A stretch of 35,565 nt of DNA from a virus: IMG/VR virus record IMGVR_UViG_3300027138_000013, positions 1-35,565 of that record; one strand, written 5' to 3'. The notes under the pieces are model-generated. The model was not told the DNA's origin, made no database searches, and worked only from the letters and a program-made list of their open reading frames with translations. Position 1 is the first letter of the stretch. Every line of letters starts with the position of its first letter. Position numbers and translations under genes: made by a program. This document shows positions 81 through 15,650 of the stretch, piece by piece.

Positions 81-154
81 TCCCGAGTAGTGTCAAAGTA
101 GCACGGAACGCTGTTAACGTTCTTGTGAAGGTGCGAGTCCTTCCTTGGGAGCCA
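81..154 (+). tRNA. tRNA-Asn(GTT), variant D/T loops
   Basis: Acceptor TCCCGAG/CTTGGGA, discriminator G, encoded CCA. Anticodon arm GAACG-CTGTTAA-CGTTC. D-loop TCAAAGTAG lacks GG and has AG; T-loop TGCGAGT has G55. Followed by a T-rich spacer like most members of the array. Confidence 0.92.
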
Positions 155-221: not shown

Positions 222-698
222 ATGGTAACATCTGATATTATAAAACAAAAAAGAATTTTAGCGGGGATTAAAACAATCACTGATTCTGAACTTAAAGAAA
301 TTCAAGCATTTTATGACGATGGAAATTCTTTAAGAGATTGTCAAAAAAAATATGGACATTGTAGAGGAACTCTGATAAAGTATCTAAATACTAGACCGGT
401 AGGCAAAAATAAATTAACGGATGAAGAAAGAAAAACCAGAAGAGTAAAATCCGTTGTTGATTGGAGAGTAAGAACTAAACAAAAATTAGTTGAATATAAA
501 GGCGGTAAGTGTATAAAGTGTGGATACAAAAATTATTTTGGTAATCTTACATTTCATCATAAAGATCCTTTACAAAAAGATTTTCAAATTAGTGGACAAT
601 CTGTTAGTTTTGATAAGTTAAAATTAGAAGTTGACAAGTGTGAGTTATTATGTCATAATTGTCACGGAGAAGTTCACGCAGGTTTATTGACAATTTAA
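222..698 (+). CDS. HNH endonuclease, homing type, inside tRNA array
   Basis: A 158-aa protein. The C-terminal half carries an HNH/zinc-ribbon signature: CIKC (Cys97, Cys100), paired histidines at 112-113 (FHHKDP), then LCHNCH with Cys144 and Cys147 and a histidine at 152 (EVH). The N-terminal region (about 20-55) looks helix-turn-helix-like and may bind DNA. Such enzymes cut or nick double-stranded DNA and are usually selfish free-standing homing genes in phages. Its stop codon ends one base before the next tRNA (starting at 700), so it is inserted tightly between tRNA-Asn and the interrupted tRNA-His. That neighbour makes it a candidate for having spread the insertion at 735-785, though the insertion does not contain the gene. 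Family assignment is firm; target site is unknown. Confidence 0.88.
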   Translation: MVTSDIIKQKRILAGIKTITDSELKEIQAFYDDGNSLRDCQKKYGHCRGTLIKYLNTRPVGKNKLTDEERKTRRVKSVVDWRVRTKQKLVEYKGGKCIKCGYKNYFGNLTFHHKDPLQKDFQISGQSVSFDKLKLEVDKCELLCHNCHGEVHAGLLTI

Positions 699-699
699 T

Positions 700-825
700 T
701 CCAGAGTAGCTCAATGGTAGAGCATGCGGCTGTGGGCCATAAAGTATTATTTAATAGAGAGTGCAAATCTCACAAGGCCAAAGTTAACCGCAGGGTTGGG
801 GGTTCGAAACCCTCCTCTGGAGCCA
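700..825 (+). tRNA. tRNA-His(GTG)-like, interrupted in the anticodon loop
   Basis: Acceptor TCCAGAG/CTCTGGA, discriminator G, CCA. The D-loop has GG and the T-arm is canonical (GGGGG-TTCGAAA-CCCTC). Anticodon stem TGCGG (725-729) pairs with CCGCA (788-792), but the loop is 58 nt instead of 7. It begins CTGTG, giving GTG, and about 51 nt are inserted after it. The insert is closed by GGCC/GGCC and contains a hairpin with loop TGCAAAT that resembles a T-arm. Too short for a group I intron. Normal bacterial His tRNA has an extra G-1 facing C73; here the discriminator is G, so His identity rests on the anticodon only. Confidence 0.7.
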
Positions 826-2883: not shown

Positions 2884-2887
2884 TTTT

Positions 2888-3014
2888 CACCAACTCTATG
2901 AAGCAGGTCGTGTAGTAAAAGAGATAGCGGGATTTGTGTTGACGACGAACATAAACCGAATACGCCTAGGAGGCATCTATCGTGTTGGTGCCATCATTGT
3001 TCGAACAGTGGTGG
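2888..3014 (+). ncRNA. structured RNA with CACCAAC/GTTGGTG closing stem
   Basis: CACCAAC (2888-2894) pairs fully with GTTGGTG (2984-2990). Inside, GATAG/CTATC encloses an eight-pair hairpin TTTGTGTT-GACGACG-AACATAAA. A second hairpin follows directly (CCATCATTG then CAGTGGTGG, 2991-3014). No tRNA anatomy. It fills the gap between tRNA-Ile and tRNA-Val. Confidence 0.42.
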
Positions 3015-3197: not shown

Positions 3198-3818
3198 ATG
3201 GGATTAATCGAATTTTGCCAACAAGATAACTGGAAGTATCCAAGTCACAGTGCTAACATGCAACATAACTTTTTTCAAGTTTATGATGAACTGTTCGCAA
3301 TAAAACGAAGATATGATCCTATGGTTATATTGGAACTTGGAACTCACATTGGTGAATCTACAAGAGCATACCACGATTATTTTGAAAACTCAAAGATTCT
3401 AACTATAGAACGAGTTAAACTACACATTGATGCTTTTGCTAATAAAGATAAATTTCCAAGAATTGAATTTTTTAATTTGGAATTGAAGACTCAAGGTGGT
3501 TGGTCAGATATTCCAAAGTTCGATTTTGAAACGTTTCCTTACAAAAAATTCGACATCATTATAGATGATTGTGTAGCACTACCAGCTGATTTTAACAATC
3601 CTGTATATGAAGAACATATTCAGACACAAACATTCAATAGATTCTATGATAGATTGAATCCAGGTGGAATGATTATTATCGATTGTATTCAACATGATAG
3701 TTATGTTGATATCATTAAGAATTGTTTTGTTGGGGATAAATCTAAGATCAAATTTTACGATTTAAGACATATGATAAATCATTATGATAATACCATGCTG
3801 GTTTATACAAATGACTAA
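3198..3818 (+). CDS. class I SAM-dependent methyltransferase-like protein
   Basis: A 206-aa protein. Motif I is ILELGTHIGES (about residues 44-54), the glycine-rich SAM-binding loop of Rossmann-fold methyltransferases. Later blocks FDIIIDD (118-124) and LNPGGMIIID (153-162) match the acidic and post-motif III strands of the same fold. This most resembles small-molecule or sugar O-methyltransferases rather than DNA methylases, as there is no DPPY-type motif. I place the start at 3198 because the open frame upstream overlaps a complete tRNA-Val and because a TATTTAT box immediately precedes this ATG. With the glycosyltransferase at 6436 it could modify a surface glycan, but the substrate is not visible from sequence. 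Confidence 0.75.
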   Translation: MGLIEFCQQDNWKYPSHSANMQHNFFQVYDELFAIKRRYDPMVILELGTHIGESTRAYHDYFENSKILTIERVKLHIDAFANKDKFPRIEFFNLELKTQGGWSDIPKFDFETFPYKKFDIIIDDCVALPADFNNPVYEEHIQTQTFNRFYDRLNPGGMIIIDCIQHDSYVDIIKNCFVGDKSKIKFYDLRHMINHYDNTMLVYTND

Positions 3819-3825
3819 TAATAAC

Positions 3826-3903
3826 GCACTCGTAGCTAAACTGGACTAAAGCAACTCGGTTCTAACGAGAAGATTGCAGGTTCGAATCCTGCCGGGTGTG
3901 CCA
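3826..3903 (+). tRNA. tRNA-Arg(TCT)
   Basis: Acceptor GCACTCG/CGGGTGT, discriminator G, CCA. Anticodon loop GTTCTAA on CTCG/CGAG. Canonical D-loop with GG; T-arm GCAGG-TTCGAAT-CCTGC. Confidence 0.9.
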
Positions 3904-3907
3904 TTTT

Positions 3908-4091
3908 GACGGAGTAGTGTAATGAAAAGCACACTGCAGAAGTTAGCTGTGGCTGGGATGATCCAATTAATTTTGGGTAAATGTAAACGACGACCAAGGC
4001 AAGCCGTATTAGCCCCATGATTGTCATGTCGATAAGCTCCAGTAAGTTAATAAAACTTGAGGTTTGGGTTTGATTCCCAACTCTGTCACCA
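3908..4091 (+). tRNA. tRNA-like gene with about 100-nt internal insertion
   Basis: Acceptor GACGGAG/CTCTGTC, discriminator A, CCA. D-arm GTGT/ACAC with loop AATGAAAAGC; T-arm TTGGG-TTTGATT-CCCAA. The T-loop has U56 where C is nearly universal, and the D-loop has G18-A19 rather than GG, a compensatory A19-U56. Between D- and T-arms lie about 130 nt instead of about 25. AAGTT (3940-3944) may pair with AACTT (4054-4058) around a 109-nt loop; alternatively TGCAG-AAGTTAG-CTGTG is the anticodon arm and the insert sits in the variable region. Anticodon not assigned. The insert contains its own hairpins (for example CATGA-TTG-TCATG). Confidence 0.6.
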
Positions 4092-4176: not shown

Positions 4177-4250
4177 GCCTCCATAGTATAAAAGCATTAC
4201 ACATCATTGGTAATGATGAAACGTAGGAGCGTTACCTACTGGAGGCTCCA
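4177..4250 (+). tRNA. tRNA-Thr(GGT), variant D/T loops
   Basis: Acceptor GCCTCCA/TGGAGGC, discriminator U, CCA. Anticodon arm CATCA-TTGGTAA-TGATG. D-loop with AAAAGC; T-arm GTAGG-AGCGTTA-CCTAC. Confidence 0.92.
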
Positions 4251-6452: not shown

Positions 6453-7656
6453 AGTAGTAATTGTATCAAGTTATGGCAATCCATTAGCTATTAATGTTTG
6501 GATCAAGTATTATGAGAAGTATTGGATGGATATTGTTGATAAGGTATACATTGTTGCTGGAGGAGAATTACTAGATCTTCAAGATAAATTGATCGAAGCA
6601 AACACCAAACTGTGTGACCATTATAACAAAAAAACCAACAGCAACAAGCTACATTTTATCTACGCAAACGACTCGAGCGACCGACATACTTTGTCAACAC
6701 ACGCACATTTGTTGTTTAACGGAACCAAATATGCTTGTATGCATCACAAAGATGCCACGTTATTTTATGTAGACGATGATCTTTTCATTTTGGACAAAAA
6801 TTATATTGACGATTGTTTCAAGAAGATAGAGTCTGGAGAATATTTGTATGGCGGTCAAGTTACACCCAGACCATCATTTGGAGAAAAATCTCATACACTT
6901 GGTTGGTTTTCTTTTTGTGATTTGAATGTCACACGTTATTTAATTGAACAATATGAATCATCAATGAATGAATACTTTTCAAATATTGATATATCATATC
7001 TACAAGCAAGTTTAATTTCTGGAGAATATGACTCAGATCCAAAACTAAAAAATAATATGGATTGGGTATATCTTAACATTAATATGTTCAAGGCATATAT
7101 TCATCAATATGGAAACATATTTGGCAGCATACAATATGTTCCAGGCATAAATTTTAACTTCATAAATTATGTAACTGATTATCTTGCTACAGATGAAGTC
7201 TATTGGTTATTTTCAAAAATGACCCGTGAATATTGTGGTAGAGACAAAGAGTTTGTGTTGTCAACAAAACCCGAAATGATGTCGCAACTTTACATACATC
7301 AACATATGAATATTGATGAACAAGTTGATGCGTTGATAAAAACTAATCCAGTATGTTATCACATTTCTGGAAACTATCGTCAGTTCAATTTTTGTTACAA
7401 AATACCTTTTGAGCAAATATGTGAGGAATTGGATAGACTAGACATGCTTCAAAAAGATTACGAGAATTACAAACTGTTGGTATTGATCAAGTTATCTTTG
7501 GATTGTTGGGATCATGACCACATTGATACAGGTGAAATACGTTCGACTATGCAACGATACTATGATCACGTTTATACGTTGCCAAATTTGTCTGACTTTA
7601 TGTCCAAGGAAAACATAGCAAAGATTCAAAATGTGGTGATGCGAAACATTCAGTAA
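6436..7656 (+). CDS. glycosyltransferase-like protein (GT-A type)
   Basis: A 406-aa protein. The N-terminus RVVIVSSYGNP with VYIVAGG (about residues 6-43) looks like the nucleotide-binding strand of GT-A enzymes, and FYVDDDLFIL (110-119) contains the acidic DxD-type motif that holds the metal and nucleotide-sugar. No signal peptide or membrane helix. Phages use such enzymes to glycosylate DNA, virion proteins or host envelope; none of these can be singled out here. Start at 6436 (MKNKD) rather than an upstream TTG in frame, since the ATG overlaps the end of the preceding gene in the usual coupled way. Confidence 0.7.
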   Translation: MKNKDRVVIVSSYGNPLAINVWIKYYEKYWMDIVDKVYIVAGGELLDLQDKLIEANTKLCDHYNKKTNSNKLHFIYANDSSDRHTLSTHAHLLFNGTKYACMHHKDATLFYVDDDLFILDKNYIDDCFKKIESGEYLYGGQVTPRPSFGEKSHTLGWFSFCDLNVTRYLIEQYESSMNEYFSNIDISYLQASLISGEYDSDPKLKNNMDWVYLNINMFKAYIHQYGNIFGSIQYVPGINFNFINYVTDYLATDEVYWLFSKMTREYCGRDKEFVLSTKPEMMSQLYIHQHMNIDEQVDALIKTNPVCYHISGNYRQFNFCYKIPFEQICEELDRLDMLQKDYENYKLLVLIKLSLDCWDHDHIDTGEIRSTMQRYYDHVYTLPNLSDFMSKENIAKIQNVVMRNIQ

Positions 7657-7799: not shown

Positions 7800-8269
7800 G
7801 ATTGGACAGTAAGTTCTTTGAAGTAAAAAGATTTTGGGGGGTTTGACCTCCATATAAGATAGTGAGTAGTAATACTCATGAAAGAGGTAGTCCCCTAACG
7901 GACCCTCGCCTGGGCAACTAGGACACTCAAACAAATGGCAAAGTCTGTGACTTTCATCCAAAAGGTGGAAGTATATCCGACGATGGTGAGAAAAAGAACA
8001 TGTGTGGGTAACACTGGCATATGTTCGGTAACGGTGCCGCCGACCACTGCTCACAGCAAAACATCCAAGAGTAAGATTTAAGCCAAAGATACGGGTGTGA
8101 GACCGCAATCAAATGCTCGTATGTAGATTGATAGAAAGAGGACCAAAGGCCAACCAAGGGACTTGATCTTGAAAATCGGTGAAGTATCCGCAAGAGAAAC
8201 ACAAATGGCGTGTCGCATATTGTATCCCAAAAGGATATGAAACGACAAACAACGCACGTCATTGTTAGG

Positions 8270-8334
8270 TGCATGATAACTCAATGGTAGAGTAATAGCT
8301 ATGTAAAGCTATGTGTTGCTGGTTCAAATCCAGT
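8270..8334 (+). tRNA. tRNA-like domain embedded in giant RNA
   Basis: D-arm with GG (ACTCAATGGTAGAGT), anticodon-like hairpin ATAGC/GCTAT with eight-base loop TATGTAAA, T-arm GCTGG-TTCAAAT-CCAGT, acceptor TGCATGA/TCATATA with one mismatch. There is no CCA (T then ACA). The oversized loop and missing CCA argue against a working tRNA; its place on a ten-pair helix argues for a structural or mimicry role. Confidence 0.6.
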
Positions 8335-8774
8335 TCATATATACAAAAACGCAAAGTCGTTGTTTGTCTAGGATGAAAGTGACTTAACTCTGTGGTCGAA
8401 AGATAACACAGACAACGAAATGTCCGCAAGACACTAGTTGTTAATCGGAGTCTGAACGGTGTCCGCAAGACTTAACTGCTGTCGAAGGCAGACGGATGGA
8501 TGAAGGTTGAATAGTTCTAGGTTAAGGTTGATAAGCCACAACCCTAAAAAGGCAGTCATGTTGGATACGATTATAGGCGCAAGTCGTGATCGTGGATAAG
8601 TTAGGAAGCCTGTCCGCAAGATGGGTATAATCTAACCGAAGGTCAACAGTGAAGGCGGTAATCTCACGCCAAACACTTAATAAGATATTTGTTGATAGAC
8701 TTTATACGGAACATTATGTGAAATCCAACAATACTCTTATAAAAAATTGGTCGATATAATCACAATCTCATTTA

Positions 8775-14932: not shown

Positions 14933-15007
14933 TGGGGATTGATTGTAATAGTAGCAAATCAGACTTTGAATCTGAGAGAATCGGAGCGTAACCGGTATCC
15001 CCTGCCA
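14933..15007 (+). tRNA. tRNA-Gln(TTG), variant D/T loops
   Basis: Acceptor TGGGGAT/ATCCCCT identical to tRNA-Gln at 14767, discriminator G, CCA. Anticodon arm TCAGA-CTTTGAA-TCTGA. D-loop AATAGTAG with AG; T-arm ATCGG-AGCGTAA-CCGGT (A54, G55, U58). Confidence 0.92.
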
Positions 15008-15013
15008 CTTTTT

Positions 15014-15043
15014 TTGACACAAGCGATCCTACGCTGAGATAAT
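15014..15043 (+). promoter_or_regulatory. sigma70-type promoter of second large RNA
   Basis: TTGACA, 18-base spacer, GATAAT. It begins seven bases after the CCA of tRNA-Gln. Confidence 0.7.
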
Positions 15044-15049
15044 ATCTTA

Positions 15050-15650
15050 GAGGAAGTTCGATGCTGCACAGCAGATGATTGGGAGAATGTAAGTTAACTT
15101 CATATTGCCCACAATGATTAAAAGATTGCGATTCCGTGGAAGCAAGGAGCAGTCCGGTTAACCTTAATTTGATAACACCACATATTAGCAGTAATCCTAA
15201 ATAACCCGAGTGTAGTGCTGCACGTTTGAAAGGATAGGTTGGAGCAGTTGTTTTTAACGAACAACCAGACAATGGTAGAGGTTTGAGCTTGGCTAGGTCC
15301 GAAACAATAACCAACGGCTGTGTTCGGCTAATAATCTGTGGGTTAAATATGCCCATAAAACCGCCAAGATGTCTGAGATAAATGTAGGAATAGAACAGAA
15401 CATCGGCTACGGCTGTGTCAAAGATCTTGTGGTGGTTTAGCCATGGCGTGAGGGACACGATACACCCCTGTATGTCTGACCCGGACGAATCTGTTCCAGA
15501 TAGGATAGGGTTGAATTTAAATTTGATCGTTAGTGTATAGAATTATAGCACGATACCCATAGGAGGGTATAGGAGACTGAAGTTGACGAGATAGACATTT
15601 GGAACGCCCAGTGAAATCCTCGTATATTCGCAAGTCACGGTCATCCAATT
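15050..15650 (+). ncRNA. large structured noncoding RNA (ROOL/GOLLD-like candidate)
   Basis: About 600 nt without a credible gene, flanked by its own promoter upstream and a gene promoter (15658) downstream. Many strong local helices are visible: CTGC/GCAG (15064-15074), a long hairpin at 15081-15110, GTTGTT/AACAAC near 15246, GACA..TACA/TGTA..TGTC near 15455-15477, and ATACCC/GGGTAT (15553-15570). A GTGAAATCC segment (15611) recurs in the 832-935 RNA and near the 3' end of the giant RNA (8718). Size and position beside tRNAs and tmRNA in a phage suggest the ROOL/GOLLD type of ornate RNA. Open frames on the minus strand are interrupted by tRNAs and look like chance. Ends are approximate. Confidence 0.55.

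Follow-up and report, generated by a model that had tools for sequence, protein, structure and literature searches.

What is the 51-nucleotide sequence that interrupts a tRNA gene of this virus, how did it come to lie there, and is it removed? The window, by which we mean the whole stretch of 35,565 nucleotides analysed here, is a virus contig of 35.6 kb on which a large array of tRNA genes is accompanied by a tmRNA and a GOLLD RNA, and the virus that bears the interrupted gene is a bacterial virus (phage). Positions 700-825 form a cloverleaf whose anticodon loop is interrupted by 51 nt. Rfam scores it as a tRNA across the whole interval (52.5 bits), and ARAGORN, with introns allowed, reports it as tRNA-Asn(gtt) i(34,51). 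With the 51 nt taken out, the loop reads CUGUUAA and the anticodon GUU, and the uninterrupted allele of a close relative, contig L001, reads GCGGCTGTTAACCGC, with the loop CTGTTAA. Residue 73 is G and the G-1:C73 pair is absent. Therefore, the restored loop, as in the L001 allele, together with G73 and the lack of G-1:C73, identifies the gene as tRNA-Asn(GUU). The preliminary description had rightly seen a tRNA with a 51-nt insert, as Rfam and ARAGORN confirm, but had taken it for a tRNA-His interrupted right after a GTG anticodon. The empty L001 allele and G73 rule out tRNA-His, and the insert actually lies between U33 and U36; the misreading arose because the GU of the exon and the first G of the insert mimic GTG. 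The locus comprises the following features.

81-154, plus strand: second tRNA-Asn(GUU), uninterrupted (ARAGORN).
222-698, plus strand: free-standing HNH endonuclease gene of 158 aa, candidate mobility partner (PHROG 2255, E 2.4e-23).
700-731, plus strand: 5' exon of tRNA-Asn(GUU), with the acceptor, D arm, 5' anticodon stem, C32 and U33 (ARAGORN with introns; identical to the uninterrupted L001 allele).
732-782, plus strand: 51-nt intervening sequence in phase 1, absent from L001, L039 and L035 with the same exons and near-identical in 14 other contigs.
735-738, plus strand: 5' strand of the GGCC closing helix, partner 776-779 (RNAfold).
757-773, plus strand: T-arm-like hairpin GAGAG-UGCAAAU-CUCAC (motif scan with a random-sequence control).
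776-779, plus strand: 3' strand of the GGCC closing helix (RNAfold).
783-825, plus strand: 3' exon of tRNA-Asn, with GUUAA, the 3' anticodon stem, variable loop, T arm, acceptor, G73 and CCA (ARAGORN; identical to L001).

Pattern scans recovered the insert in 15 contigs including the window, always in this tRNA-Asn and never outside it, in three sequence variants that differ at no more than 5 of the 51 positions. The preliminary description had advised looking for an uninterrupted tRNA in relatives, and three contigs of the same phage group indeed carry the empty gene: L001 (G001), L039 (G008) and L035 (G007). In L001 and L039, a counterpart of the uninterrupted tRNA-Asn at 81-154 sits directly 5' of the empty allele. 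The exons fall into two haplotypes. Those of haplotype G are letter-identical between the window and ten other carriers on the one hand and the empty L001 and L039 on the other, and those of haplotype T are letter-identical between the carrier L026 and the empty L035; all four combinations of haplotype and insert presence are thus seen. The insert is therefore a self-contained 51-bp unit: at a single precise position, identical exons occur both with it and without it. As the haplotype-informative sites, 28 and 42, lie only 5 bp and 8 bp from the insert, the four combinations would be explained more simply by repeated precise gain or loss than by double crossovers within 14 bp. When every tRNA of these contigs was scanned by split alignment, such present/absent pairs came up for tRNA-Asn only. 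Among bacterial genomes (one per GTDB species), the insert pattern gave two chance matches, coding-like and outside tRNA genes, and no DNA match to the interrupted gene was found in INPHARED.

The cloverleaf and the insert are conserved together: all 205 of the 205 scored pair cells are paired and three pairs have changed on both sides, which is modest evidence as the count rests on seven distinct rows. Compared with the window's copy, the interrupted gene of other phages shows 89-100% identity, against medians of 59-85% for the remaining tRNAs of these phages; the medians are taken over best hits weighted by coverage, so that low values partly reflect missing genes. This difference and the retention of all pairings indicate that the gene has not decayed into a pseudogene and has not been inherited in parallel with its neighbours. 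Recent spread probably fits the high identity best, with constraint inseparable from recency, and the letter-identical exons could likewise stem from recent spread instead of selection. A pseudogene decayed after an ordinary insertion is thus a very improbable explanation, already largely refuted, even if redundant Asn tRNAs and the absence of CCA from some copies would suit it: the exons show zero decay in 15 contigs, 100% of the cells are paired, and a near-identical insert occupies one site in otherwise diverged phages. The preliminary description would have settled on a pseudogene had there been neither a spliced product nor an intact relative, and the existence of intact relatives answers half of that proposition.

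Its opinion that the insert is neither a group I or II intron nor of archaeal bulge-helix-bulge form is borne out by the sequence rules that were checked (Rfam, end rules and fold). A degenerate or miniature intron of one of these three kinds is extremely unlikely, although a group I origin, as a remnant, has been proposed for the 50-nt insert of T4 (PMC5009743). At 51 nt, the insert is far below the size of a group I core, no Rfam intron match occurs in the window, and in no phase does a U before the 5' site, as in group I, go together with a G at the 3' end of the insert. For group II, the ends GUGYG...AY appear in no phase, since the insert starts with GUGGG (phase 1) and ends with AA, AG or GU depending on the phase. 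The archaeal motif of two 3-nt bulges around a 4-bp central helix is also missing, the fold offering only a 2-bp CU/AG helix.

The boundaries of the insert can be placed in three equivalent phases (732-782, 733-783 and 734-784), since both junctions carry a GU. The GGCC/GGCC closure previously noted is seen in the RNAfold structure and is retained in L026 as G.U/U.G pairing. The resemblance of the internal hairpin to a T arm is real, such a hairpin occurring in about 0.9% of composition-matched random sequences, but it is imperfect: GAGAG and CUCAC form 4 of 5 pairs, and in this second hairpin RNAfold favours a shifted 4-bp register over their pairing. Folding of the insert by itself is unexceptional (z -1.3).

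The genomic context suggests how such a unit could move. Between 74 and 1135, the only large differences between the window and L001, its closest empty relative, are the insert at 732-782 and an HNH block at 160-696 that is missing in L001; the remainder shows 13 substitutions in 474 aligned bases. Block and insert are 35 bp apart in the window, and both may have come in together. The HNH gene that the preliminary description proposed as a mobility partner is indeed present upstream, at 222-698. An endonuclease partner as such is supported, but the HNH gene alone is a weaker candidate than the GIY-YIG genes found beside the same tRNA in relatives. As a constant partner it was rejected: its relatives are few and unlinked to the insert, and a close copy stands beside the gene only in the window. 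A weak HNH match lies just downstream of the interrupted gene in G003 and G006. A Seg-like GIY-YIG gene (PHROG 314) is located within 1 kb upstream of the interrupted gene in G002, G003, G006, G010, G013, G014 and L022, and none is found upstream in the carriers G004, G005, G009, G011 and G015, where enough upstream sequence is available. Near the three empty alleles, neither a GIY-YIG nor another homing-endonuclease gene was found. The interruptible Asn tRNA is absent from L152, in which the GIY-YIG gene stands beside two Asn tRNAs that are intact and belong to a different type. Altogether, an endonuclease gene is adjacent in 8 of 13 testable interrupted contigs vs 0 of 3 empty ones (one-sided Fisher test, about 0.10, on related and hence non-independent contigs), and the association is not statistically secure. 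Seg-like genes are generally common in phage tRNA arrays (PMC13096335).

We infer, with good support, that the 51-bp unit moves among related phages by recombination, being gained or lost at one site with the exon background unchanged. The most likely route would be homing. A free-standing endonuclease gene next to the tRNA, of the Seg-like GIY-YIG or the HNH type, would supply the enzyme that starts it, and the insert would protect its carrier by disrupting the cutting site. The retention of haplotype markers 5-8 bp from the insert, unusual for long-tract homing, argues against this route. The same neighbourhood could also be explained by a mobile DNA cassette without splicing, which would only shield its carrier from the neighbouring endonuclease while an inactivated tRNA is tolerated next to an intact Asn tRNA. 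We regard this as possible but rather doubtful. An endonuclease gene is adjacent, an intact Asn tRNA adjoins the interrupted copy in most carriers, and CCA is not encoded in 7 of the 15 interrupted copies vs 15 of 303 other tRNAs, all of which the cassette would accommodate; it would not account for the retention of every exon pair across haplotypes, for G004 and G005, which lack another recognised Asn tRNA, or for the conservation of the insert itself, which a passive shield does not need.

The reading that we prefer, to which we would give an even chance of being correct, is that of a small mobile intervening sequence in tRNA-Asn(GUU), spread by homing and probably excised from the RNA. The insert, closed by GGCC/GGCC and bearing its T-arm-like hairpin, would be cut from the transcript and the halves joined to give CUGUUAA, possibly through cleavage at the GU that both junctions share and subsequent sealing by a host or phage RNA ligase. 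Splicing is suggested by the exons, which have been kept, and by G004 and G005, in which the interrupted gene is the sole Asn tRNA recognised by ARAGORN; G004 also contains an element that resembles a tRNA, though divergent, and has a GUU loop. Against splicing speak the intact Asn tRNAs also encoded in most carriers, owing to which the interrupted copy may be dispensable, and the CCA missing from seven copies. On these fragmentary contigs, an Rnl2-type RNA ligase (PF09414) was found only in G001, a phage with an empty allele (L092, 2020-3039, upstream of the array), no RtcB was found in 15 records, and T4 Rnl1 had no match in a search run without a positive control. Alternatively, the unspliced RNA might have a role of its own; it could, for instance, divert host anticodon nucleases as a decoy or yield a small RNA. 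Insert and exons are conserved together, and phage tRNAs that evade nucleases through altered anticodon loops are documented (PMC10264068); nevertheless, no sign of such a role appears here and the present/absent alleles imply a dispensable element, making this improbable.

The closest known systems share parts of this arrangement. In T4, a 50-nt insert in gene 60 lies beside the free-standing MobA gene and has been proposed to guard against cleavage by MobA (PMC5009743). An insert of about 50 nt with an adjacent free-standing homing endonuclease gene is common to both cases; unlike in gene 60, the insert studied here is in a tRNA, so that translational bypass is inapplicable, its neighbours are GIY-YIG or different HNH genes, and any shielding by it is putative. 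The GIY-YIG homing endonuclease SegB of T-even phages is also encoded in a tRNA array and promotes inheritance or amplification of the region (PMC2988022, PMC13096335), whereas the accessible parts of these two papers mention no tRNA insert accompanying it. The report on Lak megaphages describes small inserts in tRNA genes of these phages that only some relatives have, near-identical where present and in some cases holding tRNA-like sequence, to which the T-arm-like hairpin may be compared (Devoto et al. 2019, PMC6784885). It leaves their mechanism unexplained, its intron section reports no excision from RNA, and a later explanation may exist beyond open-licence papers. In Lak-A1 (MK250016, our L174), we found a tRNA-Ser and a tRNA-Ala on the minus strand (14984-15148 and 7332-7518), each of which appears to enclose another tRNA within its anticodon loop. 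These inserts measure 93-114 nt and hold a whole nested tRNA, in contrast to the 51 nt without one described here, which lie in tRNA-Asn of other phages and have a homing endonuclease gene nearby. Group I introns of bacterial tRNA genes occupy the anticodon loop. They likewise target a small-RNA gene and are mobile with endonucleases (PMC3984707), whereas the present insert has no catalytic core and departs from their end rules.

Other RNAs of these contigs deserve mention. In L029 (4219-4339), a tRNA-Thr(UGU) is interrupted by 44 nt that include a perfect T-arm hairpin, and a GIY-YIG gene lies upstream at 3317-3940, which suggests a wider class of such inserts; a search with one exact pattern found no empty allele. 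In L160 (1892-2011), a tRNA-Leu(UAA)-like gene has an insert of about 35 nt and a GIY-YIG gene nearby. In the window, a tRNA-Phe-like RNA without CCA (1748-1850) has a covarying acceptor stem, a long anticodon arm with the invariant TATGATGGTAAATGACA and two paralogues in L001; a 30-nt insert in it was considered and set aside, there being no empty allele and the segment resembling an extended anticodon arm. Another tRNA-like RNA (3909-4091) has a GUU loop, acceptor and anticodon stems that covary with L024, and about 110 nt in its variable region. The conserved RNA at 1132-1290 has a hairpin, TTGATA/TATCAA, swapped for a different paired sequence in L026, and a conserved non-coding unit with the ends CACCAAC/GTTGGTG (2886-3010) recurs in several related phages. 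The GOLLD RNA (8203-8670) contains a tRNA-like sequence at 8269-8344, several tRNAs (e.g., 1864-1938 and 4177-4250) have the unusual T-loop AGCGUUA in place of UUCRANN, and about 640 nt at 15007-15650 hold no convincing gene and are partly conserved in L023 and L035. Finally, L001 encodes a prepilin-like protein (6571-7234) of a style that we take to be associated with Verrucomicrobiota, a possible hint of the host.

To our knowledge, wherever the mechanism of a bacterial or phage tRNA intron has been established, the intron is a self-splicing ribozyme hundreds of nucleotides long. Tentatively, and with less confidence than in the preferred reading above, we suggest that this insert represents a new class of very small phage tRNA intron, disseminated in cassette form by the homing endonucleases encoded nearby and excised by means other than group I or group II splicing or the tRNA-splicing endonuclease, for example by cleavage at the repeated GU and ligation or as a tiny self-splicing RNA. 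With its 51 nt and with empty alleles that match exactly, the tRNA insert is a small, defined substrate for asking what removes phage tRNA introns, the question left open by the 2019 Lak report, and its link to endonucleases offers a reason for the persistence of such inserts.
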